A stretch of 16,541 nt of DNA from Candidatus Desulfofervidaceae bacterium (lineage in GTDB: Bacteria; Desulfobacterota; Desulfofervidia; Desulfofervidales; Desulfofervidaceae). Position numbers and translations under genes: made by a program. Below, piece by piece: positions 1 through 12,572 of this stretch; the first letter of the stretch is position 1; the number at the start of each line of letters is the position of its first letter. Where the stretch lies: positions 1-16,541 of the forward strand of contig JAGHCL010000024.1 in NCBI GenBank assembly GCA_021160485.1. Reading direction: 5' to 3'. The notes beneath the pieces were generated by a model, which worked only from the letters and a program-made list of their open reading frames with translations, made no database searches and was not told where the DNA came from.

Positions 1-622
1 AAGAGAATTTATTTAAAAGTTCTTTAAATTCTTCTATTTTTTGTTGGACATCTAAATATTCTTCTGGTTTTTTTCCAGAAGTAAGTTTTTTAAAAAGAGG
101 TTCTACATTAGTGGCAAAATACTCCTGCAGGGATTTTTTTTGTTGGGAAAAACTCTCTACCTTCTTCTCGCATTTTTCTACTCTATTTTTCAAGATCTTG
201 TTCTGAAGGGAAAGTCTTTGAATTAAATTCTTTTGTTCTTCCTGTCTATTGTAATATTCTATTGCCTCCTGAATCATCTGCTTAAATTCTTCTTCCGAAT
301 TCCAAGGCTTGGTAATATAACGATAGACATGTCCTTGGTTGATTGCAGCCAGCAGAGTGGGAATCTGGGAGTAAGCAGTTAATACTATGCACACAACCTC
401 AGGATATTTCTCTTTCACTTTTTTAATAAGCGTGAGACCATCCATCTCAGGCATCCGGAGGTCTGTAACTAACACCTGAACTGACTCTTCTTCTAAGATT
501 CCTAGAGCTTCTTTCCCATCAGAGGCAAAAAGCTTATTATAATCCTCTCTCCGCAACATTCTTTTAATCGTATGCAAAATTCTGACTTCATCGTCTACAA
601 ACAAAACCGTGGCAGTGTTCAT
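1..622 (-). CDS. Response regulator, REC domain plus C-terminal coiled coil (3' end outside window)
   Basis: This gene is cut by the left window edge: 207 codons are visible with no stop. Residues 1-120 form a receiver domain with the acidic pair D10/D11, phosphoacceptor D54 (in TDLRMPEMDG), switch T82 and conserved K105 in the KPW motif. From about residue 120 the protein is charged and heptad-like, so probably coiled coil. No DNA-binding, HD-GYP, GGDEF or kinase domain is visible, but the C-terminus is missing. The ATG at 622 overlaps the TGA of the preceding gene (ATGA), with AGGAG about 10 nt upstream, which indicates translational coupling. It is the last visible member of the kinase operon. 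RMP and KPW motifs are typical of HupR/RpfG-type receivers (family knowledge). A role as phosphorylation-dependent adaptor or output protein is inference. Confidence 0.85.
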   Translation of the reverse strand, partial: MNTATVLFVDDEVRILHTIKRMLRREDYNKLFASDGKEALGILEEESVQVLVTDLRMPEMDGLTLIKKVKEKYPEVVCIVLTAYSQIPTLLAAINQGHVYRYITKPWNSEEEFKQMIQEAIEYYNRQEEQKNLIQRLSLQNKILKNRVEKCEKKVESFSQQKKSLQEYFATNVEPLFKKLTSGKKPEEYLDVQQKIEEFKELLNKFS

Positions 623-1158
623 TTCAAGAGCTCTCCTAGATCTTCGTCTAATTCAATATATACCTCCCCGTTTTCGTCAGTTTTAACCTTCGTGATCCCT
701 GGATATCTTTGCTCCCAATATGCCAGAATTGCATCTCTTTTTTTGATTTCTTCCTGAAGGGATCTATTTTCACCAATGAGTTCTTTCCACTCCAATGCCC
801 TTATGACGGTAAGTAAAAAATCTTCATTATTCCAAGGCTTAAGGATAAACTTATATACGCCCACTTCATTAATGGCCTCCAATATCACATTAAGGTCCGA
901 ATATGCAGAAAGAATTATCTTTATAACCTCAGGGTATTTTGACGTAATTTTCTTTAACAACTCAATCCCTGTCATTCCTGGCATCCGCTGATCGGTAATA
1001 ATCAAGTCTATTTTCTCCTTATCAACAATCTTTAAAGCTTCAAAAGGGTCTGTGGTCGTAAAACAGGTAATCAGGGTATAAGGTTTGAATATTCTCTTTA
1101 TGGCATTCAAAACGTTTTCCTCATCATCTACGACTAGAATATTATGTGGCTGCTGCAT
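619..1158 (-). CDS. Response regulator with REC domain and short C-terminal tail
   Basis: The product is 179 aa. The receiver domain (about residues 5-125) has the acidic pair D11/D12, phosphoacceptor D56 in TDQRMPGMTG, switch S84 and K107 in FILKPW. The tail (130-179) starts helical and ends acidic (DEDLGELLK), and it holds no recognisable output domain, so the protein may act as a shuttle or adaptor receiver. I place the start at the ATG at 1158 because the receiver fold begins there and AAGGAGAG lies just upstream. An ATG further upstream, at 1314, would add 52 residues that merely read through the preceding gene in another frame. The gene overlaps the end of the HDOD gene by 17 bases and the next receiver gene by 4 bases. 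It is presumably co-transcribed with the kinase and phosphorylated by it (inference). Confidence 0.88.
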   Translation of the reverse strand: MQQPHNILVVDDEENVLNAIKRIFKPYTLITCFTTTDPFEALKIVDKEKIDLIITDQRMPGMTGIELLKKITSKYPEVIKIILSAYSDLNVILEAINEVGVYKFILKPWNNEDFLLTVIRALEWKELIGENRSLQEEIKKRDAILAYWEQRYPGITKVKTDENGEVYIELDEDLGELLK

Positions 1159-2350
1159 CTCTCTCTCCTTGTTCCTCAAACTCTTTAATTTTATCTTCAA
1201 TACTTTCTTTCTCAATCTTGAGAAAGGCAAATACCTCTGGCTCAGGAGGATAACGTGGCGTAATATTAAGGATCTCATCGGCATAAAAATCGGCAATATT
1301 GACAAGGGCAGCAATTTCTTTATTTATTACTCCTTCTTTTAAAGGCTCATGGTGGAAAAAGGCAATTTCAATGAGAGGATAAGGAAAGTTCCACCAGTTA
1401 AGCAAATATCCACCCAATAAAGTATGGGGAACACCTATAATCTCTCTTTCTGCCTCTAACCAACCAATTTCAGGTTGAGATTCGAGTCTTTCCAATATCT
1501 GAGAGAATTTTTCAGGAAAGTAAATTAACTCAAATAGTCTCCCAATGTCATGGAGTAATCCTACGGTAGAAAACCCATCTGGTAGCTTTTTCTGAAACAA
1601 ATCAATATACAAAAAGTTAATAATTTTATTACACAAATTTGCATGTTCCCAAAATTTGTTTATTTCTATTTTAGCTTTCCCTATTTTTCTAAAACTATTA
1701 ATAATTCCTAAAGAAAGAACAATATCTCTAATAACGTTTGTTCCCAAAAAGACAACTGCTCTATTTACCGAACTTATAGGCACCCTTTGACCATAAAAGG
1801 CAGAGTTGGCCAATTTTAAAACATCGGCTGTAAGAGCCGGATCTTCTTCAATTACCTTACTAATTTTAGATAAATTTTCTCCCTTTTTAATCAAATCCAG
1901 TATTTTCTGGTAGCGTATTTCAATAGTAGGCAGGTGAGATACAGAATTAATAATATTTAATAAATTTTGGTCTTCAAGCGCACTTTTAACTGCAAATAAT
2001 TGGGTGATATAATTTTCTAAACTCTCCTTATCCCAGGGTTTACTCAGGTAAGCCTGAGCCGTGCCATTAATGAGGGATTTATAAACAGTTTCCCTTTCGG
2101 TATAACCACTCAAAATTACACTTATGATATGAGGAGCCTTGAGTTTAACTTTCTGAAGAAATTCATAACCATCCATACCGGGCATCTTCATGTCTGCAAC
2201 TACTAAATCAATACCCTCTCTCTCTATGATTTCTAGCCCTTCAGGACCACTCTGGGCAAAAAAACATTTATAAGGACTCTTGCGAAAATCCCTTTTCAGG
2301 GCATGAAGGACTTGGGGTTCATCGTCAACAAAAAGGATTTTTTTATTCAT
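1142..2350 (-). CDS. REC-HDOD two-component output protein
   Basis: The product is 402 aa. Residues 1-120 are a receiver domain: D9/D10, phosphoacceptor D53 in ADMKMPGMDG, S81, and K104 in LSKPW. Residues about 138-335 are an HDOD domain, recognised by LPTIEI (140-145), EEDPALTADVLKLANSAFYG (168-187), FLGTNVIRDI (201-210) and LLHDIGRL (265-272). H236, H267/D268 and H333/H334 keep an HD-like histidine pattern, but there is no GYP motif, so c-di-GMP phosphodiesterase activity is not predicted. HDOD proteins are signalling modules of mostly unknown biochemistry, several linked to motility or regulated gene expression (family knowledge). The tail (350-402) is acidic. ATG and the kinase stop overlap by 8 bases (ATGAATAA), with AGAGGAAG just before the start. 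This is probably the main output of the operon (inference). Confidence 0.93.
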   Translation of the reverse strand: MNKKILFVDDEPQVLHALKRDFRKSPYKCFFAQSGPEGLEIIEREGIDLVVADMKMPGMDGYEFLQKVKLKAPHIISVILSGYTERETVYKSLINGTAQAYLSKPWDKESLENYITQLFAVKSALEDQNLLNIINSVSHLPTIEIRYQKILDLIKKGENLSKISKVIEEDPALTADVLKLANSAFYGQRVPISSVNRAVVFLGTNVIRDIVLSLGIINSFRKIGKAKIEINKFWEHANLCNKIINFLYIDLFQKKLPDGFSTVGLLHDIGRLFELIYFPEKFSQILERLESQPEIGWLEAEREIIGVPHTLLGGYLLNWWNFPYPLIEIAFFHHEPLKEGVINKEIAALVNIADFYADEILNITPRYPPEPEVFAFLKIEKESIEDKIKEFEEQGERDAAAT

Positions 2351-4037
2351 CTTCCTCTTCTTTTAATTTAGGTTTAATGGGTAATTTGATGGTAAAAGTT
2401 GCTCCTTTACCTGGTTCACTTTCAACCCAAATCTGACCCTGATGTTTGTTAACAACAATATCATAGCAAATGTTAAGTCCCAGCCCAGTACCTTTACCAG
2501 TGGGTTTAGTGGTAAAAAAGGGATCAAATATTTTATCTTGAATCTCCTTGGGAATTCCTGGGCCGTCATCTTTTATCTGACAATATACAAACTCCCCATC
2601 GCTGTAGGTTTTTATGAAAATAGTCCCTTTTTCTTGTCTGTTTTGACTAGCAATGGCCTGAGCGGCGTTGACAATAATATTCATAAGAACTTCATTAATC
2701 TTGCCTGGGTGACAATAAATAAGGGGAACTTCTCCCAATTCTGTCTTTACTTCCGCATAATATTTGTATTCATTTTTGGTAATTACCAATGTGCTCTTTA
2801 TCCCTTCATTGATGTCATATTCGGTATAGTCTTCTATTTGATCCACACGGGAAAAATCCCTCAGATTTTTAATGATCTCCGTTAGCCTTTTAATCCCTTC
2901 ATCTGTATCTTTAAATAGCGATTTCATATCATCTAAGATAAAATCAAGGTCCATCTGTTCCTCTAATTTTTTAATTTCTCTTATTTTCTCTTTAAATTCT
3001 GGCAAGCTGCCACTTAAATCTTCTGCAAGGTAACGATAAGCAGTTAAAAGCTTTGTTAAGTCTGTCACATAGTCCTTTAAGGTTCTAAAATTACTCGCTA
3101 CAAACCCCAGAGGATTATTCATTTCATGGGCAATGCCAGCTGCTAATTGGCCTATAGCCATTAGTTTACCTTGTTGGATGATAAAAGACTGGGCCTCTTT
3201 TAATTTGGCTACGGTTGCCTTCAATTCCTCTTCTACTTGTTTTCTGGGTGTGATGTCATGGAAAGTCTGGATTACTCCAATCAACTCCCCTTTTTCGTTT
3301 TTAAAAGGAGCAGCAGTTTTATAGAGCCAAACTTTCTCTCCTGTAGCCATTACATAAGGACCTTCTTTTCCTACATATTTTTCTCCTGCTTTAATCCTAT
3401 TTATCGGGCACAAGGGAGTATGACAACACTTACTTGGAAAACAATCAAAACACTTTTTGCCAACCAGTTCCTTAGCTGGAATACCGAAAAGTTCTCCCAT
3501 TTTACGATTAGCCAATTTAACCGTAAAATCTAAATCTAAAACCCATATCCCTTCACTTATGGTCTCAATCACTGATCGAAGGTAGTTTTTCTGTTGTTGC
3601 ACATCTTCAAGGACCAACTTGATGGTCTCTGCTTTTTTACTAAGTTCTTCCTTCAACTCTTTCACGCAATTCTTCATCTGCAATAATCTCTGGAGTTTTA
3701 ATTTTAAGGTCAATAAATCAAGTGGTTTTTCAATAAAGTCACAGCACCCTAAATAAAATGTTTTTGTCTTTTCCCATTCATCAGGATAAGCTGTCATTAC
3801 AATAATGGGAATGCAGTGTTTTTTTAAAATTGCTTGAGTTTCTTTTAAAAATTCTATTCCGCTCATTCCTGGCATTTTAAGATCTAAAAGAATCAAATCA
3901 GGAAGACCAGAAGCAAGTTTTTCTAAGGCTGCCTTTCCGTCTTGAGATTCTATTACCGTATAGTTATCAGATAGCGCTTCTTTTATAAACTTGAGATCAT
4001 CTAAATTATCATCCACAACTAAAATAATCGGGTTCAT
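2343..4037 (-). CDS. Histidine kinase with N-terminal receiver and Cys-rich PAS domain
   Basis: The product is 564 aa and has no membrane segment, so it should be a cytosolic sensor kinase. Domain order: receiver (1-122; D9/D10, phosphoacceptor D52, T82, K104), coiled-coil linker (123-150), PAS (about 152-272), HisKA with the H-box GIAHEMNNPLG (phosphorylated H304), a long linker helix pair, then HATPase_c with N-box around N457, DDGPGIP, FDPFFTTKP and GKGTGLGL. The PAS domain contains a dense cysteine cluster (C196, C199, C204, C205, C210) that could bind metal or sense redox state. ATG at 4037 follows GGGAGGGGTG. It is the promoter-proximal gene of the operon; downstream genes overlap it and each other. 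The N-terminal receiver means it may itself take phosphate or be feedback-controlled (inference). Confidence 0.95.
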   Translation of the reverse strand: MNPIILVVDDNLDDLKFIKEALSDNYTVIESQDGKAALEKLASGLPDLILLDLKMPGMSGIEFLKETQAILKKHCIPIIVMTAYPDEWEKTKTFYLGCCDFIEKPLDLLTLKLKLQRLLQMKNCVKELKEELSKKAETIKLVLEDVQQQKNYLRSVIETISEGIWVLDLDFTVKLANRKMGELFGIPAKELVGKKCFDCFPSKCCHTPLCPINRIKAGEKYVGKEGPYVMATGEKVWLYKTAAPFKNEKGELIGVIQTFHDITPRKQVEEELKATVAKLKEAQSFIIQQGKLMAIGQLAAGIAHEMNNPLGFVASNFRTLKDYVTDLTKLLTAYRYLAEDLSGSLPEFKEKIREIKKLEEQMDLDFILDDMKSLFKDTDEGIKRLTEIIKNLRDFSRVDQIEDYTEYDINEGIKSTLVITKNEYKYYAEVKTELGEVPLIYCHPGKINEVLMNIIVNAAQAIASQNRQEKGTIFIKTYSDGEFVYCQIKDDGPGIPKEIQDKIFDPFFTTKPTGKGTGLGLNICYDIVVNKHQGQIWVESEPGKGATFTIKLPIKPKLKEEEDE

Positions 4038-4111
4038 CTACACACCCCTCCCTATTCTTACTTCGGCAATATATAAAAAAAGTTCGGAGAAATTGACGTC
4101 TAATCCATCTC

Positions 4112-4131
4112 TGATTTTAGAACCAAAATCA
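4112..4131. repeat. 7-bp perfect inverted repeat upstream of kinase operon
   Basis: TGATTTT and AAAATCA arms are separated by AGAACC. The site lies about 75-95 bases upstream of the kinase start and could be an operator for either divergent unit. AT-rich inverted repeats of this size arise by chance, so confidence in function is low. Confidence 0.25.
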
Positions 4132-4333
4132 CAGCCTCTGCTGCTTGGGTAATTCTTTTATACCATTAGTTTAATTTTCTCTGGGTTTCACAAAGACTTG
4201 CTTGACAACCTTCACAGACATGCTTACTTCATAATTGAAAAATGTAGTAAGGAGGCAAGACAGAAAATAGCATGGTTAGATTCGTTTTTAATATTGAAAA
4301 TATAGCCCAAAATCTGGTTATGTAAATTTCTCC

Positions 4334-4361
4334 TTGACGATATCATAAATTATGAGAGAAT
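4334..4361 (+). promoter_or_regulatory. Candidate sigma70 promoter of the coiled-coil gene with internal palindrome
   Basis: TTGACG at 4334-4339 and GAGAAT at 4356-4361 are 16 bases apart (5/6 and 4/6 to consensus). The spacer contains the perfect 13-bp palindrome TCATAAATTATGA (4343-4355), well placed for a repressor to block polymerase. The predicted transcript leader is about 80 nt. Confidence 0.45.
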
Positions 4362-4432
4362 AGAAACAATTTTTAAAGCTAGCGTTGTTTAAAGTAGAAA
4401 AAGCAAGGCCTAATGAAAAGTAGGCGAACAAA

Positions 4433-4443
4433 AAGGAGGTGAT
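4433..4443 (+). promoter_or_regulatory. Perfect 11-base Shine-Dalgarno sequence
   Basis: AAGGAGGTGAT is complementary over its whole length to the conserved 16S rRNA 3' end and sits 5 nt before the ATG at 4449. No other gene in the window has such a site. It fixes the start and suggests strong translation. Confidence 0.9.
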
Positions 4444-4448
4444 AGTGT

Positions 4449-4844
4449 ATGAAACCATTGGAATTGTGGCAGAGAGTAAAAGAAACACTTTATAATGCCA
4501 TGGAAACAGTAATAGAAAGAGCCCAGCGGGTAGCGGAAAAAACAAAGGAAAGTGCAGAGGAAGCCAGAGCTAAACTGGAGATAAAAAAGCTAGAGTTAAA
4601 AATTGCTAGTAAATTTGCAGAATTAGGTCATAAAGTATATGAATTGCACCTAAAAGCAGGAGAAGAAAATCCTTTGGTCAATGAAGAAGTGAAGCTACTT
4701 TTAGAGGAAATTACTAATCTGGATAGGAATTTGGCTCAGAGCCAGGCGATGCTGGAAAAGGAAACGGCTGAGAAAAAAGGCATTCCGGAAGTAGAAAAAA
4801 AAGAGGAACAGGTTTTGGAAGCTAAACCTACCGAAAAAGAGTAA
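4449..4844 (+). CDS. Small charged coiled-coil protein of unknown function
   Basis: The product is 131 aa, very rich in Lys, Glu and Ala, with no cysteine, signal peptide or membrane segment. Residues 1-40 are amphipathic helix (LWQRVKETLYNAMETVIERA), 40-110 are heptad-rich coiled coil interrupted near residues 72-76 (EENPL), and 111-131 are a disordered charged tail. I do not recognise a named domain. The layout resembles short conserved hypothetical helical proteins seen beside stress or housekeeping genes in Desulfobacterota (from memory, unverified). It has the strongest ribosome binding site in the window and a candidate promoter of its own, so it may be abundant. The Nudix gene follows after 42 bases that contain a hairpin. 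A structural, scaffold or stress-related role is speculation. Confidence 0.8.
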   Translation: MKPLELWQRVKETLYNAMETVIERAQRVAEKTKESAEEARAKLEIKKLELKIASKFAELGHKVYELHLKAGEENPLVNEEVKLLLEEITNLDRNLAQSQAMLEKETAEKKGIPEVEKKEEQVLEAKPTEKE

Positions 4845-4847
4845 ATT

Positions 4848-4866
4848 GCAGGGGGATCCCCCCTGC
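4848..4866 (+). terminator. GC-rich hairpin between coiled-coil and Nudix genes, poor T-tract
   Basis: GCAGGGGG (4848-4855) pairs perfectly with CCCCCTGC (4859-4866) around a 3-base loop. Only TCTT follows, so it is a weak intrinsic terminator at best. It could reduce read-through into the Nudix gene or protect the upstream mRNA 3' end. The Nudix Shine-Dalgarno begins 9 bases later. Confidence 0.45.
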
Positions 4867-4886
4867 TCTTCAATAAGGAGTATCTT

Positions 4887-5324
4887 GTGGCGAAAAAGGT
4901 TATTCATTGTCCAAATTGTGGTGAACCTGTTTATGTTTATCAAAATCCCATTCCCACCGTGGATATTATCATAGAAGTAGAAGGTGGTATCATCCTTATT
5001 AAAAGAAAAAATCCCCCTTATGGTTGGGCAATCCCTGGTGGTTTTGTGGATTATGGCGAGAGCTTAGAAGAGGCTGCTGTGAGAGAGGCAAAAGAAGAAA
5101 CCGGGTTAGATATAGAACTGATAAGGCAACTCCATACTTATTCTGACCCAGGTCGTGACCCAAGGCAGCATACCATTACTACTGTTTATATTGCCAGGGC
5201 AAAAGGCGAGCCTCAAGCGGGGGATGATGCCGCTGAAATAGGTATCTTCTCACAGGAAAGTCTCCCTACTCCTATTGCCTTTGACCACGCTAAAATTCTA
5301 GCTGATTATTTTGCCAGTAAGTAA
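4887..5324 (+). CDS. Nudix hydrolase, probably ADP-ribose pyrophosphatase-like
   Basis: The product is 145 aa. The Nudix box is complete: G52, E58, then R66-E67 with E70/E71 and G73 ([10 protein letters not shown]), the metal-binding helix that cleaves nucleoside diphosphate-X substrates. The stretch [11 protein letters not shown] (20-30), the [15 protein letters not shown] segment and the loop [13 protein letters not shown] (83-95) resemble archaeal and bacterial ADP-ribose pyrophosphatases (from memory). Substrate is therefore inferred, and 8-oxo-dGTP or another NDP-sugar remains possible. The N-terminus has one CPNCG pair (C8, C11), a half zinc ribbon; a full NudC-type zinc site needs four cysteines. 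The start is GTG, preceded by AAGGAG at a 6-nt spacing. It follows the coiled-coil gene and may share its transcript. Confidence 0.93.
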
Positions 5325-5624
5325 AAGTTTTTGATTTATTCTACTTTCTAAGTGCAGAAGTGCATTTGAGTAATTGCAAAGCGGTTTTCTCTACCCAATT
5401 TAAGTCGAATTCCACTTGAGGTAGTTGCGAAAAAATGCGCTATATATAGTAATTTATGCCCAAAAATAAATTTCCCCTACAACAAAACTCCTTTATCTAA
5501 TCTTTGTAATTATTTTAGAAATGAATTTCACTCACCCTTGACACCCTTGAGTTTTTCTTACACATTGCAAGGCAATTAGTGCTACAGCCGACCAGTAACT
5601 TTAAATCTGTTGGATAAGAAAGTA
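5325..5624. other. AT-rich region upstream of uvrA with small repeats
   Basis: No gene is visible. The stretch holds an 8-base near-tandem repeat (AAGTGCAG/AAGTGCAT, about 5350-5365), a 20-base imperfect palindrome (5400-5419, 16 of 20 symmetric), the 10-bp palindrome CTATATATAG (5440-5449), a paired CCCTTGA repeat (5535-5550) and a candidate uvrA promoter. I found no match to a LexA box of the CTGT-N8-ACAG or GAAC-N4-GTTC type. Confidence 0.5.
5538..5566 (+). promoter_or_regulatory. Candidate uvrA promoter
   Basis: A perfect -35, TTGACA (5538-5543), is followed at 17 bases by a weak -10, CACATT (5561-5566, 3/6). The small inverted repeat ATTGC-AAG-GCAAT (5564-5576) overlaps the -10 and start region. 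The predicted leader is about 50 nt. Confidence 0.35.
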
Positions 5625-8090
5625 ATGCCTTACATTACCCTTCACGGTGCTAGAGAGCATAATCTAAAAAATATTAGCCTTAACATTCCCAGAGATAAGC
5701 TTGTCGTTATTACTGGCGTGAGTGGATCAGGAAAAACTACCTTGGCCTTTGATATTTTGTTTGCTGAAGGACAAAGGCGGTATATTGAAACTCTGCCCGC
5801 TTATGTTCGTCAATATCTCCAAGTACTAGCAAAACCAGACATAGACCTTTTAACAGGCATTCCTCCTACCGTCGCCATTAATCAACGAAGCAGCCTTTTT
5901 ACCCGTCGGTCCACGGTGGCTACTATTACTGAGATCGCTCATTATTTACGTCTCTTCTTTGCCAAAGCAGGCAGGCAATATTGCCCAAAGTGTGGCAGGT
6001 CTGTACAAAGTATGCAATCAGGAGAAATTCTGGATGCCATTCTATCTGAATGGAAAGGAGAGGAAATCGCTATTCTTGCTCCTAAAGTGAGACAAAGAAA
6101 AGGCTGGCACAAAGAGGTATTTAAAGAGGCTGTTAAAAAAAGATATACCGAAGCTCGGGTGAATGGGAAAATCGTTACCCTAGGCCAAAATCCACCCGCA
6201 TTAGCTCGCTATAAAGAACATAATATTGACATTGTTATTGCCCGTCTGCATGTAAACTACAAAAACCTACCTCTTTTGCGCGAGGCCGTAAACCTGGGTC
6301 TTAAAGAAGGCCGGGGAGTTGTTACGGTCATAAATAAAAGCACTGAGCGTCTTTACAGTGAAAAACTTTTCTGTCCGTTTTGTCAGATGGGACTGCCCAG
6401 TCCTGACCCCAGACTCTTTTCCTTCAACAGTCCTCTGGGTGCCTGTCCTAGGTGCGATGGTTTGGGCACGATAGGGGACAAAATTTGTCCTCAGTGTCAA
6501 GGACACCGACTTAACTCCATTGCCCTCGCCGTGCGGATAGCTGATTATAATATTGCTGATATTCAGGCACAAAGTGTGGAAACACTTTTAAAACTTTTAC
6601 CCACTCTCCCTTTGGATGAACGCCAGCGAGAAATTGCCAAACCAATTATCCCAGAAATCTTCAAGCGGCTTTCTTTTTTAAATCAAGTAGGACTTGGTTA
6701 TCTCACCCTGGACAGAAGTGGAGATACCCTTTCTGGCGGAGAGGCCCAGCGCATTCGTCTTGCCGCTCAATTGGGCTCTAATCTGCGGGGAGTATGCTAT
6801 ATTCTTGACGAACCGACCATTGGACTCCATCCCCGCGATAATGCCATGTTGATAGAAGTGCTGAAAACACTGCGGGATAGAGGCAATACGGTTTTGGTGG
6901 TGGAACATGATGCTGCCACCATAAAAGCCGCAGATTTTGTTATAGATTTAGGTCCAGGTGCAGGAAAAGAAGGTGGCAGGGTAATAGCTACCGGCACCCT
7001 GGCGGAAATCAAAGCCAATCCTTATTCTCTGACCGGAAAGTACCTGAAAAGGGGTTTAAAGCTTAATACCTCGCCAGTAAAAATAGCCAGATGGCTTCAT
7101 ATCAAAGGGGCAAGGGCGTTTAATTTAAAAGGATTTGATGTCGCTATCCCTTTAGGCACTTTTACCTGTGTTACCGGTGTTTCAGGTTCAGGCAAAAGCA
7201 GTCTAGTAATGGAAGTAGTTTACAAAGGGCTTAAGGCTCGTTTGCAAAAGGTAACACCACCAGATAACCACGTTGATATGATCGGCTGGGAGGCAATAAA
7301 ACGGGTATTGGTCGTTGACCACAGCCCTATTGGTCGCACACCCCGTTCCACACCGGCCACTTATGTTGGAGTCTGGGATGAAATCAGGCATCTTTTTGCT
7401 CAGGTGCCGGCAGCAAGGGCCAAGGGATACAAACCAGGCAGATTTTCCTTTAACGTCCGTGGGGGGCGGTGCGAACACTGTGCCGGTCAGGGCAAGATAA
7501 AAGTAGAAATGAACTTTTTGCCAGATGTCTATGTTGATTGTGAAGTTTGTAATGGAAAGCGTTTTAATGAAGAAACTCTGGCTATTACCTACAAAGGTAA
7601 AAATATAGCTGAAGTTTTAAATATGACCATTGCCGAAGCAGCAGCATTCTTTTCGGCCATCCCCCGTATCTCCCATCCCCTGAAAATCCTTGAAGAAATG
7701 GGGCTGGGATACCTCACCCTAGGTCAACCAAGCCACACCCTTTCTGGAGGCGAGGCCCAACGGATAAAATTGACCGAAGAACTATGTAAAAAAAGCCAGG
7801 GGAAAACTTTGTACATCTTGGATGAACCTTCCACTGGTTTACACATGGCTGATGTAGAAAAGTTAATTAAGGTCTTACGTAAGCTGGTAGAAGTAGGAAA
7901 TACCGTGCTTGTTATTGAACATAATCTGGACATTATCGCCGCTGCCGATTACATCATTGACCTTGGTCCAGAAGGCGGTGAGAAGGGGGGTGAACTTGTT
8001 GCAAGTGGTTCCCCTGGTGAAATTATCCATTGTCCCCGATCCTATACAGGACAGTGGTTAAAACTTGGGTGTGGAAGCGGAAATGTATGA
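5625..8090 (+). CDS. uvrA: Excinuclease ABC subunit A lacking the insertion domain
   Basis: UvrA is the damage-recognition ATPase of nucleotide excision repair; it loads UvrB on damaged DNA. From the ATG at 5625 it is 821 aa, against about 940 in usual UvrA. Visible parts: Walker A GVSGSGKTT (31-39), zinc module 1 (C250, C253, C274, C277), signature LSGGEAQRI (from 369) with ILDEPTIGLH, second Walker A GVSGSGKSS (518-526), zinc module 2 (C616, C619, C639, C642), second signature (from 706) with ILDEPSTGLH. The UvrB-binding region (about 115-245) is present. Only about 10 residues separate C277 from the CPQC pair at 288-291, where classical UvrA has an insertion domain of about 110 residues. 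An alternative TTG start at 5610 adds MDKKV; the ATG fits known N-termini better. Neither start has a good Shine-Dalgarno. Confidence 0.95.
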   Translation: MPYITLHGAREHNLKNISLNIPRDKLVVITGVSGSGKTTLAFDILFAEGQRRYIETLPAYVRQYLQVLAKPDIDLLTGIPPTVAINQRSSLFTRRSTVATITEIAHYLRLFFAKAGRQYCPKCGRSVQSMQSGEILDAILSEWKGEEIAILAPKVRQRKGWHKEVFKEAVKKRYTEARVNGKIVTLGQNPPALARYKEHNIDIVIARLHVNYKNLPLLREAVNLGLKEGRGVVTVINKSTERLYSEKLFCPFCQMGLPSPDPRLFSFNSPLGACPRCDGLGTIGDKICPQCQGHRLNSIALAVRIADYNIADIQAQSVETLLKLLPTLPLDERQREIAKPIIPEIFKRLSFLNQVGLGYLTLDRSGDTLSGGEAQRIRLAAQLGSNLRGVCYILDEPTIGLHPRDNAMLIEVLKTLRDRGNTVLVVEHDAATIKAADFVIDLGPGAGKEGGRVIATGTLAEIKANPYSLTGKYLKRGLKLNTSPVKIARWLHIKGARAFNLKGFDVAIPLGTFTCVTGVSGSGKSSLVMEVVYKGLKARLQKVTPPDNHVDMIGWEAIKRVLVVDHSPIGRTPRSTPATYVGVWDEIRHLFAQVPAARAKGYKPGRFSFNVRGGRCEHCAGQGKIKVEMNFLPDVYVDCEVCNGKRFNEETLAITYKGKNIAEVLNMTIAEAAAFFSAIPRISHPLKILEEMGLGYLTLGQPSHTLSGGEAQRIKLTEELCKKSQGKTLYILDEPSTGLHMADVEKLIKVLRKLVEVGNTVLVIEHNLDIIAAADYIIDLGPEGGEKGGELVASGSPGEIIHCPRSYTGQWLKLGCGSGNV

Positions 8091-8385
8091 CTCGATTACG
8101 CATCACGTAATTCTCCACTCCGGAAAGCTAGGAGCTAAAAATGGGGAAAGTTCTGTTTCTAAATCACATTGACTGTATAAAAATGTTGATTTAAAAAGCA
8201 TTAATTATGGAAAGGATAATGGTAACAAAAGACCTATGAAAAAGGATTGACGCGATAACTAAAAACAACAGAAGTGTATCCTGCCCTCCTATTAGCTGGA
8301 ACGGGTATCTTTTTGGTAAAGACATACAGAATGGATTAAAGGTATATGATAAAATAACCATACAAAATTCTTTTAAACTTCTTTC
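8091..8385. other. uvrA-truD intergenic region with inverted repeats
   Basis: This 295-base AT-rich stretch has no credible gene. Just after the uvrA stop lies ATTACG-CATCA-CGTAAT (8095-8111), a small perfect stem without a T-tract. A longer interrupted inverted repeat (8160-8170 with 8182-8193, one bulged base) surrounds a TTGACT -35-like element. A second TTGACG occurs near 8250 without a recognisable -10. Confidence 0.5.
8169..8197 (+). promoter_or_regulatory. Weak candidate promoter embedded in an inverted repeat
   Basis: TTGACT (8169-8174) and TAAAAA (8192-8197) are 17 bases apart. The inverted repeat TAAATCACATT / AATGTTGATTTA (8160-8170 and 8182-8193) overlaps both elements and could be an operator. 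It lies about 190 bases before truD, so assignment to truD is uncertain. Confidence 0.25.
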
Positions 8386-9561
8386 ATGAAACTTAAAGTA
8401 AAGCCAGAAGACTTTTTCGTAGAAGAACATATTATTCTACCCAGAAAAAAAGGGGAATACGGGCTTTATCTCCTTGAAAAGCGTGGTTGGAATACGGTAG
8501 ATGTTTTAAAAAAAATCGCAAGCACCTATAAGATTCCCATCTCCCACCTGGCGGCAGCCGGCAGAAAGGACAAATATGCCGTTACCAAACAGTATGTAAC
8601 AATAAAGAGGGTAAAAGGTCGTTTCTTTAAAGACAAAAACTGGGAACTTATACCTGTAGGCACCATGGATCGTCCTGTAGGCCCAGACTTGATTATCAAA
8701 AACAGTTTTCGGATTGTGCTGCGGAAGGTTTCTAAAGAGGAAGGAGAATACATAAAAAAGGCTTTAAGCACAATAAAAGCCTGCGGTCTGCCTAACTATT
8801 ATGGTGATCAGCGTTTTGGCACTTACGATAGTCAGAATGGTTTTGTAGGTGAAAAAATTGTGAAACAGCAATTTAAAGGGGCCGTTAAAGCCTTTCTTTG
8901 CACTATTCACCCTGGTGATAAAAAACCTGCCAAAGAGCGAAAACGCTATTTTTTTGAATACTTTGATGAACCTAAGTTCTGCCTCAAGCAGGCAAAAACC
9001 ACCCTGGAAAAACGCATTTTTTCTTTTCTGCTCAAAGAGAAAAATTATCTAAGAGCCCTTTACCTAATTCCAGCTATAGAACTTGAGTTTCAACTCTCTA
9101 TGTTTCAAAGTTATCTCTGGAATCTCTTTTTACGGGAGTTGCTTTTACATTTAGCGCCAGAAGGCTATGAAATTAGGGGACGGGTCAATAGTTACTATTT
9201 TCCTTCTCTTCTGTCTGAACCATCAAGAAGCTATCTATCCCGCGAATTTCCTACTCCAGGTTATCAGGCTAAGATGCCCGATGAACTGACCCAAAGAATT
9301 TATGAAAAAATTTTAACAGACAACAATCTCAAACCATCTGCTTTTAACTTCAGAAAATTTCGCAGACATTACATAAAATCTTTCCCTCGCCACGGCATTG
9401 TCTTTCCAGAAAATTTCAAAATGGGTGAGTTAGAACCAGATGAGCTTTATTCAGACCACTTCAAGTTATCTTTATCCTTTGCCCTCCCCACAGGCAGTTA
9501 TGCCACAATTCTGGTCAAAAACTTGCAGGCATATATAGCGGCGGAAAAAGGTTACCATTAA
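8386..9561 (+). CDS. truD: tRNA pseudouridine(13) synthase TruD
   Basis: The product is 391 aa. TruD converts uridine 13 of tRNA to pseudouridine in the cytoplasm. Diagnostic motifs are visible: the N-terminal KPEDFFVEE (6-14), the catalytic motif AAGRKDKYAVTKQ (58-70) with catalytic D62, CGLPNYYGDQRFG (134-146), and FQSYLWN in the C-terminal half of the catalytic core. The segment between the last two motifs contains the start of the TRUD insertion domain, which extends further downstream. Length is slightly above the enterobacterial enzyme and within the range of archaeal and deep-branching bacterial members. The ATG is fixed by the family N-terminus, yet no Shine-Dalgarno precedes it (the upstream 15 bases are pyrimidine- and A-rich). 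It stands alone between uvrA and the convergent trp operon. Confidence 0.95.
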   Translation: MKLKVKPEDFFVEEHIILPRKKGEYGLYLLEKRGWNTVDVLKKIASTYKIPISHLAAAGRKDKYAVTKQYVTIKRVKGRFFKDKNWELIPVGTMDRPVGPDLIIKNSFRIVLRKVSKEEGEYIKKALSTIKACGLPNYYGDQRFGTYDSQNGFVGEKIVKQQFKGAVKAFLCTIHPGDKKPAKERKRYFFEYFDEPKFCLKQAKTTLEKRIFSFLLKEKNYLRALYLIPAIELEFQLSMFQSYLWNLFLRELLLHLAPEGYEIRGRVNSYYFPSLLSEPSRSYLSREFPTPGYQAKMPDELTQRIYEKILTDNNLKPSAFNFRKFRRHYIKSFPRHGIVFPENFKMGELEPDELYSDHFKLSLSFALPTGSYATILVKNLQAYIAAEKGYH

Positions 9562-9741: not shown

Positions 9742-10443
9742 CTATGAAGTACGAAGTTTCCTTGCATCAACTTGGCGAACTGCTTGGAGAAAGGCTTTCA
9801 CTTTCTCAGGATCTTTTTTTGTAACAGGATTTTCAACACCTGTAATGACATCCACTCCATAAGGTTGCACTTCTGCAATAGCCTGGCCTACATTCTCAGC
9901 ATTCAATCCACCGGCTAGAATAAGAGGGATTTTTATTTTTTCTCTTACCCGGCGGGCAATTGCCCAGTTAAAGGGCTTACCAGTGCCTGCGGGCCGAGAA
10001 TCAGTGAACGAATCAAGGAGCACTGCATTTACTCCAGCGTTAGCTAGTCTGTCGCAGGCCACAACAGGATCAGCAATATCATATTTAAGCTGCCCTGTTT
10101 CTACAGAAAAACGAAGTGCCTTGATGATTTGAACTCCCCGTTTTTTGAGCTCAGAAATAAGCTTTTCTGTGACATTAAAAGGCTCACGTCCATGAAGCTG
10201 AACCACATGTGGCTTTAACATATCAGTTATAGCCATTATTTTGTCTGACTCATCTCCTACCACAACCACTTTTGTTACAAAAGGCGGCACTTTAGCCATA
10301 AGTCTTTTGGCAACTTCTCTGTCTAGATTCCACGGGACGGGAACAGGATACTCTACAACAAAACCTAGGGCGTCAACACCAGCACAGACGCAGAGTTGGA
10401 TGTCTTCTTCATTGGTAATACCGCAAATCTTTACCCGTGTCAT
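9742..10443 (-). CDS. trpF: Phosphoribosylanthranilate isomerase (divergent)
   Basis: The product is 233 aa, slightly longer than the usual 200-215. TrpF isomerises N-(5'-phosphoribosyl)anthranilate to CdRP, the third step from chorismate to tryptophan. It keeps the general base C7 (KICGIT), VQLHG (81-85), the acid D144 in LLDS, GTGKPFNW, LAGGLNAENV and the phosphate-binding VDVITGVE. The usual SPR/SKR loop after beta-2 is replaced by EYPVPVPWN (31-39), so the arginine equivalent to R36 of the Thermotoga enzyme is absent; a 2-residue insertion lies here. The start is ATG at 10443, overlapping the trpC TGA by ATGA; an ATG at 10500 further upstream would only read through trpC. There is no strong Shine-Dalgarno, so translation is probably coupled. 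It is the last gene of the operon. Family assignment is firm; substrate is less so. Confidence 0.9.
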   Translation of the reverse strand: MTRVKICGITNEEDIQLCVCAGVDALGFVVEYPVPVPWNLDREVAKRLMAKVPPFVTKVVVVGDESDKIMAITDMLKPHVVQLHGREPFNVTEKLISELKKRGVQIIKALRFSVETGQLKYDIADPVVACDRLANAGVNAVLLDSFTDSRPAGTGKPFNWAIARRVREKIKIPLILAGGLNAENVGQAIAEVQPYGVDVITGVENPVTKKDPEKVKAFLQAVRQVDARKLRTS

Positions 10444-11150
10444 ACAGGCCATCCCACAGAGGTCATTTCTTTTAAAAATTGAGAGATACTCGGTGCACAC
10501 ATCACCGCCGTGCCAACCAAAACAGCATCTGCTCCTGCCTTCCCTGCTCGTCTAACTTCATCCGGAGTGCTGATAGAACTTTCACTAATAACTGGTTTTT
10601 TACCGTTATAGTATCTGGCCAACTTCTCCGTGTGTCCTACATCTGTATCATCTACTTCCAAAATAGTGATGTCTCTATTGTTTATACCTAAAAGGTCAAA
10701 GGGGAGTTGCTGGACACGTTGCATTTCTGAAATTGTATGAACTTCCAACAGTGATTCCAGCCCACATTTGCTGGCAGCATCTAAAAGTTTAATGAGTTCT
10801 TGGTCTTCAAGCATGGATGCAATCAATAATATAGCTGATGCACCACTTTTTGCTGATTCTTCTATCTGTTTTGTAGTTTTAATAAAATCTTTATGTAGAA
10901 CAGGCAGATCAACAGATTGTGCCACATTCTTTAATAGCTCCATACTTCCGCCAAAATAACGTGGTTCAGTAACCACACTAATCCCAGCTACCGGACAGGT
11001 AGCCATTTCTTGCACAAGAGCAAGGGGATCTCGCCCGTGCAGCAGGTCTCCTGCCTTTTTTGAGCGCAGTTTAATTTCTGAAATGACCGGGAAAAATCCT
11101 TCTTCCTGTCTTCGCCTGATATTTTTTACAAGAGACCGCTTAAGGGACAT
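10440..11150 (-). CDS. trpC: Indole-3-glycerol phosphate synthase (divergent, short N-terminus)
   Basis: The product is 236 aa, against about 250-260 in most bacteria and archaea; the N-terminal alpha-0 helix is shortened. TrpC closes and decarboxylates CdRP to indole-3-glycerol phosphate. Catalytic residues are recognisable: E25 and K27 (VISEIK), K87 (HKDFI, general acid), E136 (LLEVH), N157 and R159 (GINNRD), E190/S191. Two usually conserved segments differ: the SPS loop is SKKAG (30-34), and SESGI is SESSI (189-193). The ATG at 11150 lies 4 bases after the trpD TAG (TAGGCCTATG) without a clear Shine-Dalgarno, so coupling to trpD is likely. It is the middle gene of the trpD-trpC-trpF operon. 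IGPS activity is probable; the substitutions fit a divergent subfamily. Confidence 0.92.
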   Translation of the reverse strand: MSLKRSLVKNIRRRQEEGFFPVISEIKLRSKKAGDLLHGRDPLALVQEMATCPVAGISVVTEPRYFGGSMELLKNVAQSVDLPVLHKDFIKTTKQIEESAKSGASAILLIASMLEDQELIKLLDAASKCGLESLLEVHTISEMQRVQQLPFDLLGINNRDITILEVDDTDVGHTEKLARYYNGKKPVISESSISTPDEVRRAGKAGADAVLVGTAVMCAPSISQFLKEMTSVGWPV

Positions 11151-11154
11151 AGGC

Positions 11155-12504
11155 CTATTTAAATTCGTTTGAGCGTCTAATCAGTTCTTCCAGTTTTTTC
11201 ATTGCTGCCCCAGAATCAATCAGGGATTGCGATTTCTCTATTCCCTCTTTGATACTTGGTACCACTCCACTTACATAGAGAGCAGCCGCATTATTAAGCA
11301 CTAAGAAATCTCTTTTAGGACCTTGTTCCTTTCCTGAGAAGATGTCCCGGATAATCTTTGCATTATATTCTGAACTTCCTCCAGCAATATCTTCCAGGCT
11401 ACATCTGCGCATCCCAAAGTCCTCAGGTGTGATCTCGTAGCGCTTTATTTCTTTCCCTCGAATTTCAGCAATAGAAGTTTTACCAAGCAATGATATTTCA
11501 TCAAGACCATCTAGGCCGTGGGCCACTATAACATGATTAAAGTCCATTTCCGCTACCACTTCAGCTACCATAGGAACCAAATCAGGTTTATAGACTCCCA
11601 TCAAATGGTTTCTTGCGCCCACAGGATTGGTCAATGGACCAATGATAGTGAAAAAGATAGTTTTTATTCCCAGTTGATTCTCTGGTCCAAAGACCTTGAG
11701 CATCACTGGATGAAAATCAGGCGCATATAAGAAAGCGATACCTATTTCTTCAAGAAGGATGGATGCCTGTTGAGGTGTAAGATGAATATTAACCCCTAAT
11801 GCTTCCAGCACATCCGCACTCCCTGATGAAGAAGAAATGGACCGGCTTCCGTGTTTGGCCACAGGTACACCGGCAGCTGCAGTAAGTATTGCGTTAGCCG
11901 TACTTACATTAAAAGTGGTCAATCCGCCGCCCGTGCCGCAGGTATCAGTTATTTCACCTTCCACCGCTGGACTGATGGGTATACAATTGTTTCGCATGGC
12001 CTGGGCGATGTAAGCTACCTCTTTAATGCTGGGCCCCTTGGATAAAAGAGCGACCAGAAAGCCTCCGATCTGAACATCCGTGACCATATCATTGTTAATT
12101 GCGTCAATCAGGGTGTATATTTCGTGTTTCTCCAAATCAAAATTTTGCGTTAATTTGGAAAGAATGGGTTTAATTATCTCTTTCCCTTTTTCTGTCTTGG
12201 GAATAGACACTGTTTCTGAAATTACAGGAGGAGGCGTTGGATAGGTGCTTTCCATCAATCCACTAAACTTATAAGTCTTAAAAGCCATCATTGTCCTGGT
12301 AGAAACCAAGCCTTCAATGTTTTGCATATTTACCGTTACAATATCTGAAAGGCTCTCGTACTCTTGCACCTGAATTTTCACTGCAAGGTCATACTCGCCG
12401 GTAATGGAGAAGATTTCCACTACCTCATCTATTTCCCTCAATTGGGCAACCACCTTTGGAATCATTCCCTTCTCTACCTTTGTCAAAACAAATGCTGTAA
12501 TCAT
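11155..12504 (-). CDS. trpD: Anthranilate phosphoribosyltransferase with N-terminal RAM (Lrp/AsnC-type) domain
   Basis: The product is 449 aa, about 100 longer than normal TrpD. Residues 1-79 form a stand-alone Lrp/AsnC effector (RAM, ACT-like) domain: MITAFVLTKVEKG, EIFSITGEYDLAVKI (30-44) and VSTRTMMAF. No helix-turn-helix is present. A Pro/Thr linker (85-107) leads to TrpD (108-449), which transfers phosphoribose from PRPP to anthranilate. Visible TrpD motifs: DTCGTGGG (187-194), FNVST, KHGSRSISS, SGSADVLEALG, GPLTNP, and metal-binding D335-E336. By eye, D83, N109 and R164 of the Sulfolobus enzyme correspond to G194, S220 and E275. The ATG at 12504 follows AAGGGAG; an ATG at 12561 would lie upstream of the promoter. 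It is the first gene of the operon. Feedback control by tryptophan through the RAM domain is inference. Confidence 0.93.
   Translation of the reverse strand: MITAFVLTKVEKGMIPKVVAQLREIDEVVEIFSITGEYDLAVKIQVQEYESLSDIVTVNMQNIEGLVSTRTMMAFKTYKFSGLMESTYPTPPPVISETVSIPKTEKGKEIIKPILSKLTQNFDLEKHEIYTLIDAINNDMVTDVQIGGFLVALLSKGPSIKEVAYIAQAMRNNCIPISPAVEGEITDTCGTGGGLTTFNVSTANAILTAAAGVPVAKHGSRSISSSSGSADVLEALGVNIHLTPQQASILLEEIGIAFLYAPDFHPVMLKVFGPENQLGIKTIFFTIIGPLTNPVGARNHLMGVYKPDLVPMVAEVVAEMDFNHVIVAHGLDGLDEISLLGKTSIAEIRGKEIKRYEITPEDFGMRRCSLEDIAGGSSEYNAKIIRDIFSGKEQGPKRDFLVLNNAAALYVSGVVPSIKEGIEKSQSLIDSGAAMKKLEELIRRSNEFK
12268..12504 (-). other. RAM / AsnC-type ligand-binding domain within trpD
   Basis: Codons 1-79 of trpD encode a beta-alpha-beta-beta-alpha-beta ACT-like module. 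The core GEYDLAVKIQV (36-46) matches the G.YDl.vkv strand of Lrp/AsnC effector domains, where amino acids bind at dimer interfaces. It is in frame with the transferase with no internal stop, so it is a true fusion in this sequence. Confidence 0.85.
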
Positions 12505-12543: not shown

Positions 12544-12572
12544 AGTATAGGAAAAGTACAATTGTGTGTCAA
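12544..12572 (-). promoter_or_regulatory. Sigma70 promoter of the trpD-trpC-trpF operon
   Basis: On the minus strand, a perfect TTGACA (12572-12567), a 17-base spacer and TATACT (12549-12544, 5/6) form the best promoter in the window. The spacer holds the 8-bp palindrome ACAATTGT, a possible operator. Transcription would start near 12537, leaving a leader of about 33 nt before the ATG, too short for an attenuator or leader peptide. Confidence 0.8.

Follow-up and report, generated by a model that had tools for sequence, protein, structure and literature searches.

Altogether, our analysis supports a model, held with moderate confidence, whereby the DNA analyzed here (the window, a stretch of 16,541 nucleotides from a Candidatus Desulfofervidaceae bacterium) carries a mobile RAM-trpDCF cassette that would be controlled by an amino acid and would provide a second version, with altered acceptor specificity, of the three steps in the middle of tryptophan synthesis. 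The cassette reads RAM-trpD'-trpC'-trpF' on the minus strand: at its head, a RAM (Lrp/AsnC effector) domain is fused to a TrpD-like phosphoribosyltransferase (TrpD'), and downstream lie trpC' (11150-10440), encoding a paralogue of indole-glycerol-phosphate synthase (IGPS), and trpF' (10452-9742, with an alternative start at an internal Met at 10443), encoding a paralogue of PRAI. The model builds on the domains and order of the cassette, its conservation and selection, its coexistence with ordinary trp genes, the replaced residues of its acceptor site, and its horizontal transfer.

The fused gene lies at 11155..12504, exactly where a preliminary description of this DNA had placed it, and is read from the minus strand, with the ATG at 12504-12502, the stop codon at 11157-11155, and a product of 449 aa; the plus-strand frame at 11155-12504 is riddled with stops. 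That description had also recognized a RAM domain of 79 residues without a helix-turn-helix, followed by a linker and a complete TrpD, and had proposed a profile search and a structure prediction, both of which bear it out. AsnC_trans_reg (PF01037) matches residues 9-77 significantly at 49.9 bits (cut-off 25), the RAM domain begins at residue 1, no helix-turn-helix family of Pfam matches at E <= 0.01, and both the S-I-T-G-E-Y-D-L-A-V-K-I-Q-V core and a Pro/Thr-rich linker are present. Glycos_trans_3N (residues 112-174) and Glycos_transf_3 (residues 184-434) together make up a complete TrpD-like domain, and the protein scores 366.8 bits with the NCBIfam trpD model TIGR01245 (cut-off 199). We assign residues 1-79 (12268..12504, minus strand) to the RAM domain on the basis of PF01037, a profile match to 2djw, and the structural model; residues 80-108 (12181..12267, minus strand) to a flexible linker on the basis of alignment variability, pN/pS, and low pLDDT; and residues 109-449 plus the stop codon (11155..12180, minus strand) to the TrpD' domain. 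In the AlphaFold2 model (mean pLDDT 82.9, superseding an earlier model from 12 sequences with a mean of 66.9), residues 2-73 follow the order beta-alpha-beta-beta-alpha-beta, which by order of elements is the RAM fold, with means of 78-90 for ten-residue blocks across residues 1-70; residues 73-100 of the linker region are of low confidence, and TrpD-like elements come after. The TrpD' domain has the AnPRT fold, and a fold search with the whole chain, which barely probes the RAM part, gave TrpD structures only among the matches listed.

The RAM domain has several relatives in the PDB. Residues 1-79 of 2djw align to RAM residues 1-79 with an E-value of 3.4e-12 (2.4e-22 with a profile), and PH1519 and 2e1a are further relatives. 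Both 2djw and 2e1a/2z4p, the latter of which we take to be DM1, resemble the domain described here in lacking a helix-turn-helix and in their length, start, and GxYDL signature, but they stand alone, whereas here the domain is joined via the linker to a phosphoribosyltransferase. Lrp/AsnC regulators, by contrast, carry an N-terminal helix-turn-helix that the fused protein lacks. The GEYDL and T-x-T-M-M-A-F signature is near-invariant across the fused RAM domains, and much of it is common to 2djw and 2e1a. RAM or ACT domains joined to metabolic enzymes have reportedly been described in general by Ettema et al. in 2002; those fusions are reported to embody the same idea of an amino-acid-binding domain on a biosynthetic enzyme, but here the enzyme itself is a diverged paralogue in a mobile cassette. 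Apart from the fused RAM domain, PF01037 matches nothing in the window's genome (assembly 81.3% complete). Stand-alone RAM proteins that share 34-38% identity with the fused domain occur in 7 of 24 genomes in the family of G250, a genome that carries the fusion.

When a collection limited to a single genome per species was scanned by pattern, 27 loci matched the fused protein. The whole fusion is present in 12 loci besides the window (L002-L013); L014, L015, and L027 are partial fusions, L028 is a 45-residue fragment, and 11 loci (L016-L026) match from residue 101 or later only. Identity to the window's fusion is 68-82% in the 11 loci aligned without L011, and 71% in L011. Over the 78 pairs among 13 sequences, mean pN/pS is 0.174 in RAM, 0.182 in TrpD, and 0.566 in the linker; purifying selection acts equally on the RAM domain and the enzyme. 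With 12 more full-length fusions and this low pN/pS, the fusion is not a matter of chance; the PF01037 and 2djw matches and the purifying selection likewise rule out that the RAM domain is a chance or frame artefact. Distances for RAM correlate well with those for TrpD' (Spearman 0.83, 13 sequences), and the agreement is weaker for TrpC' (0.69, 12 sequences) and TrpF' (0.64, 11 sequences). Two of the partial genes are damaged. At L015:5948-6753 the fused gene is interrupted by a deletion (either real or an assembly error) that starts near residue 12 of RAM, reaches into TrpD', and is flanked by short stretches that resemble each other, with trpC' and trpF' present; at L014:3-1214 (G419) it is truncated by the contig start and has also lost about 36 TrpD' residues (~279-314) in frame. 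Among the matches listed from the open-licence PMC literature, we found no description of an AsnC/RAM-TrpD fusion or of a paralogous trpDCF cassette.

The order TrpD', TrpC', TrpF' is preserved in 15 of 15 loci with sufficient DNA (tblastn of the window and 17 loci, with L015 counted without RAM and with L002, L004, and L027 ending too early to count). Directly upstream of the cassette lies trpB-trpA in 7 of 17 readable loci (L003, L004, L005, L008, L011, L012, and L015) and not in the window, L002, L006, L007, L009, L010, L013, L027, L197, or L238; L014, cut at its start, is outside this count. By eye, no recurrent neighbor beyond trpB-trpA was noticed in the flanks of this cassette, which we refer to as type I. 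In L010 (Desulfatitalea alkaliphila), positions 1-290 hold the broken end of an extra trpF' about 6 kb upstream of the cassette. A possible sigma-70-like promoter of the window's cassette, TTGACA-17-TATACT (12544..12572, minus strand; 11 of 12 consensus matches, on consensus alone), ends 40 nt 5' of the ATG of RAM-trpD'. The short leader that had been claimed is plausible given this site and the lack of any Rfam family at gathering score in the window, a result on which we also set aside an RNA leader; against it, promoter-like sites are no commoner than in shuffled sequence (7 against 6.9 over the whole scan). Elsewhere, the window encodes on the plus strand (5610-8090) a UvrA of 826 aa that scores at or above the curated UvrA cut-offs and is about 115 residues short of the profile in its first half, and on the minus strand (2-4037) four successive receiver-domain genes, namely two for receiver proteins without other Pfam match (one truncated by the window end), one for a receiver-HDOD protein, and one for a receiver-PAS-histidine kinase.

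The cassette is a second, paralogous trpDCF set that coexists with the ordinary pathway. Fusion sequences occur in 18 genomes (G000, G407-G420, G491, G493, and G703; broken in G419 and G420, fragments only in G493), 13 of which also have an ordinary trpD: G407, G409, G410, G411, G413, G414, G415, G416, G418 (a partial gene), G420, G491, G493, and G703. The fused TrpD' usually coexists, that is, with an ordinary TrpD of the TIGR01245 type; the trpD family search covered 15 of the 18 fusion genomes and two fusion-less ones, and accounts for ten of the 13, all but G491, G493, and G703. No ordinary trpD was found in the draft assemblies of G000, G408, G412, G417, and G419; in G408 and G412, the latter being the same genome as G250 as judged by identical contig places, the trpE contig stops short of trpD. 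The two sets share a single 3,179,300-bp contig in G491, where the ordinary genes run trpE-G-D-C-F-B-A (order by eye), and lie within 10 kb on one contig in G703. The fused trpD is the only one found in the incomplete assembly of the window's genome, which also has an ordinary trpC (C86; 305 bits, against 184 bits for the cassette trpC') and an ordinary trpF-trpB-trpA (C66). We did not find trpE in this genome, the sole chorismate-binding match adjoining, by eye, a PabC-like gene. The LLES motif of TrpE, which is linked to feedback, is kept in 10 of 11 fusion genomes checked and reads LFES in G703 (L238).

What sets TrpD' apart is its acceptor site. AnPRT holds the carboxylate of anthranilate with N138 and R193 in Mtb numbering (PMC9835598); the Arg corresponds to R164 of the Sso enzyme and R159 of the Tk enzyme (PMC5537072). 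Both are replaced in the window, the Arg by Glu275 (codon at 11680..11682, minus strand) and the Asn by Ser220 (codon at 11845..11847, minus strand). The R193 position is Glu in 13/13 cassette TrpD' and Arg in 52/52 ordinary TrpD, and the N138 position is Ser in 13/13 and Asn in 52/52, the ordinary set having been filtered by length and the GTGGD motif; without this filtering the set comprises 62 TrpD, of which 60 have Arg and, among the 61 with a letter at the N138 position, 60 have Asn, the one Ser and one Glu being those of the cassette fragment L015. H218 of the KHG motif is 57 residues from E275, a distance equal to that of H102-R159 in TkTrpD; the region around E275 (269-281) has a pLDDT under 50 in the model. 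The PRPP/Mg site (GTGG, Asn/Ser, Lys-His, Asp-Glu) is kept in 13/13, with Ser for the Thr after NxS in 4/13, and in place of the GTGGD signature all 13 TrpD' have GTGG-G, one residue shorter. Relative to TrpD (TIGR01245), TrpD' carries an N-terminal RAM domain, lacks the GTGGD Asp, has the changes N138->S and R193->E, and has Thr for Asn at residue 286, next to an insertion of one residue. It forms a clade of its own (support 100/100). From these replacements we infer that the acceptor has changed from plain anthranilate. Residue changes alone are no proof of a new substrate, since yeast Trp4 S121A, an active-site variant that loses PRPP binding in crystals, still supports tryptophan synthesis in vivo (PMC12750150).

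The two partner enzymes are altered as well. For TrpF, a simulation study attributes shielding of the carboxylate to R36, the Arg in the SPR motif, and describes no clear direct contact between R36 and substrate (PMC9088769). The position of TmTrpF R36 is Trp in 14/14 cassette TrpF' (Trp41 in the window) and Arg in 34/34 ordinary TrpF. TrpF' (9742..10452, minus strand; 112 bits with PF00697) shares the barrel and catalytic residues of PRAI TrpF but has an EYP..VPWNL signature besides this Trp; the Asp (D126 in TmTrpF) and what we take to be the catalytic Cys are kept in 14/14 each. TrpC' (10440..11150, minus strand; 182 bits with PF00218, profile from position 35) belongs to the barrel family of IGPS TrpC and has its catalytic residues but lacks the N-terminal alpha0 lid in the alignment of 14 cassette with 56 ordinary sequences, and the loop Pro found in 56/56 ordinary sequences is present in 0/14 cassette ones. 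Profile matches begin at position 25-40 in cassette TrpC' and at 1-2 in ordinary TrpC except that of G133 (31), the short piece L162 being excluded. Equivalents of SsIGPS Glu51, Lys53, Lys110, and Glu159 are kept in 14/14, as are those of Asn180 and Ser211, presumably catalytic as well; the conserved Asn and Arg of TrpC' we take to be N180 and R182 of SsIGPS. These counts come from 72 hit entries for TrpF (split hits counted twice, pieces under 195 residues dropped) and 72 for TrpC, and most of the ordinary rows are from loci chosen for holding TrpD, so that the sample is non-random. In IGPS, removal of alpha0, a helix needed for substrate affinity, is reported to raise Km strongly, and a substrate that lacks the carboxylate can still undergo weak ring closure (PMC7681013). 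Both paralogues are sharply separated: with self-matches excluded, TrpC' scores 273-322 bits among cassette proteins and at most 128 bits otherwise, and TrpF' 244-302 bits and at most 119 bits, with a clade support of 100/99 for TrpF'.

Support for the idea that the three components belong together also comes from a sister operon, type II, in which RAM accompanies TrpC' and TrpF' even when unfused. In G492 (L193:5946-11755) and G904 (L239, ~3350-9410), a stand-alone RAM protein is followed by TrpC', TrpF', a RibD_C-type reductase that falls below the TIGR01508 and TIGR00227 cut-offs, a distant TrpD homologue, and a molybdopterin oxidoreductase; in G031 (L231, ~6470-9105), the contig breaks off after the first four genes (all genes of L231, and RAM, TrpC', and TrpF' of L239, were named by eye). 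Like the cassette, this operon has RAM, TrpC', and a TrpF' with EYP..VPWN[LI], and its TrpD homologue also has an altered acceptor site, but RAM is unfused, the TrpD homologue is of a distant lineage, and the RibD-type reductase and, in L193 and L239, the molybdopterin oxidoreductase are additions. In the TrpF' tree, type II (2 rows, with G904 left out) falls inside type I (14 rows), and the two together make up one clade (100/99). The TrpD homologue of G492 is a separate lineage in which the two columns of the carboxylate ligands read Ala and Met, the second column having gaps beside it in the alignment. In L194, L195, L196, L199, and L200, a zinc alcohol-dehydrogenase-like gene adjoins, by eye, a TrpD homologue that is distant and has an altered acceptor site; L196 joins the two in a single frame of 708 aa.

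The cassette reached the window's lineage horizontally. The window's mfd, beside the cassette, is 64-71% identical to that of the family relatives G002-G005, 58% to that of G001, and 37-46% to those of nine other genomes searched (weaker paralogue rows excluded), and the match to family relatives rules out a misbinned contig for the window. In turn, the window and G407 share 82% identity in the fusion but only 45% in mfd. The other five of the six genomes covered from the window's class have a RAM-less TrpD, only 41-46% identical; together with the match to G407, these rule out vertical inheritance in the class. Counts elsewhere are as follows: in the family of G250, 20 of 24 genomes have a match and G250 alone has the fusion; in the phylum, 346 of 395 genomes match the query, with at least two whole fusions among the matches listed, and a TrpF' profile gives three matches (G000, G250, and G031) at 332-401 bits, the next row having 151; whole, broken, or fragmentary fusions occur in 11 of 155 genomes of the class of G415; and TrpF' is found at E <= 1e-60 in 4 of 389 genomes of the class of G413.

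In our model, RAM-TrpD' would catalyze the committed step of an altered trpDCF route, in which it would move phosphoribose from PRPP onto an amine other than plain anthranilate, TrpF' would carry out the Amadori rearrangement, and TrpC' would perform the ring closure. A genuine and selected RAM domain on a TrpD-family enzyme makes it reasonable to infer that RAM-TrpD' is under direct amino-acid control. By analogy, the RAM domain may bind an amino acid, either the pathway product or tryptophan itself, via dimer and dimer-dimer contacts and, once bound, switch the first, PRPP-consuming enzyme by changing the assembly of the transferase or its loop closure. Given the trpB-trpA neighborhood, the first candidates are an indole-type product or a cassette co-regulated with tryptophan synthesis. 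The changed acceptor is suggested by the coexistence with an ordinary trpD, the replaced carboxylate residues of TrpD' and TrpF', and the loss of alpha0 and the loop Pro from TrpC', and the cassette reading as a whole by the retained PRPP/Mg and catalytic residues, the sharp separation from ordinary enzymes, the company that RAM keeps with TrpC' and TrpF' even when unfused, and the pN/pS of RAM. Several observations count against an altered acceptor: the trpB-trpA genes upstream of some cassettes also fit an ordinary output of indole-glycerol phosphate, the usual catalytic residues of TrpC' are intact, the E275 region is poorly modeled and R36 lacks a clear substrate contact, and no ordinary trpD was found in the draft assemblies of 5 of 18 genomes, the window's included.

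The same observations bear on the alternatives. Were the cassette a second set of tryptophan isozymes that uses anthranilate and in which RAM provides an amino-acid response different from that of the ordinary TrpD, much as DAHP synthase isozymes are differently regulated, then the trpB-trpA neighbors, the intact catalytic residues of TrpC' and TrpF', and a trpD profile score far over the cut-off would be as expected; both carboxylate ligands of TrpD' and the Arg of TrpF' are replaced, however, invariantly across the cassette sequences compared, and the IGPS lid is lost, and we consider such a set unlikely. The preliminary description had gone further, taking the fused enzyme as the TrpD of the pathway, with RAM perhaps shifting feedback control from TrpE to TrpD. 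A real RAM domain, the single trpD of the window's genome, a possibly short leader, and the trpB-trpA genes of 7 loci agree with this, but an ordinary trpD in 13 of 18 fusion genomes, LLES in 10 of 11 TrpE, and the replacement of both anthranilate-carboxylate residues do not support a role as the organism's tryptophan-pathway TrpD or a shift of the control point to it, and the window's genome, only 81% complete, keeps an ordinary trpC and trpFBA; we regard this proposal as very improbable. A further alternative concerns the RAM domain, which might be a mere oligomerization module or partner tether that senses nothing. In its favor, RAM domains, which bind amino acids at subunit interfaces, form dimers and larger complexes, and certain relatives of Lrp are predicted, or said on the basis of unpublished work, not to bind amino acids (PMC2995911). 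The near-invariance of a signature largely common to 2djw and 2e1a and the unfused RAM of the sister operon argue against this alternative, which we think quite unlikely.

Returning to the model of a mobile cassette with an altered acceptor, it is tempting to speculate, as a tentative extension, that the cassette belongs to an unrecognized pathway of tryptophan-type chemistry in which the carboxylate of the acceptor is absent or moved, which yields a new indole-like or ribosylated metabolite under direct amino-acid control, which is spread among anaerobic sulfate reducers and syntrophs, and which includes the sister operon with its RibD-type reductase, second TrpD homologue, and molybdopterin enzyme. 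Because family profiles name the cassette genes trpD, trpC, and trpF, metabolic models of anaerobes would count them as redundant tryptophan genes. If the cassette uses another acceptor, it would represent a hidden pathway in culturable organisms such as Desulfatitalea alkaliphila. Finally, if our model is correct, the cassette would provide a natural case of three consecutive enzymes re-specialized together, with an amino-acid sensor attached directly to the PRPP-consuming step.
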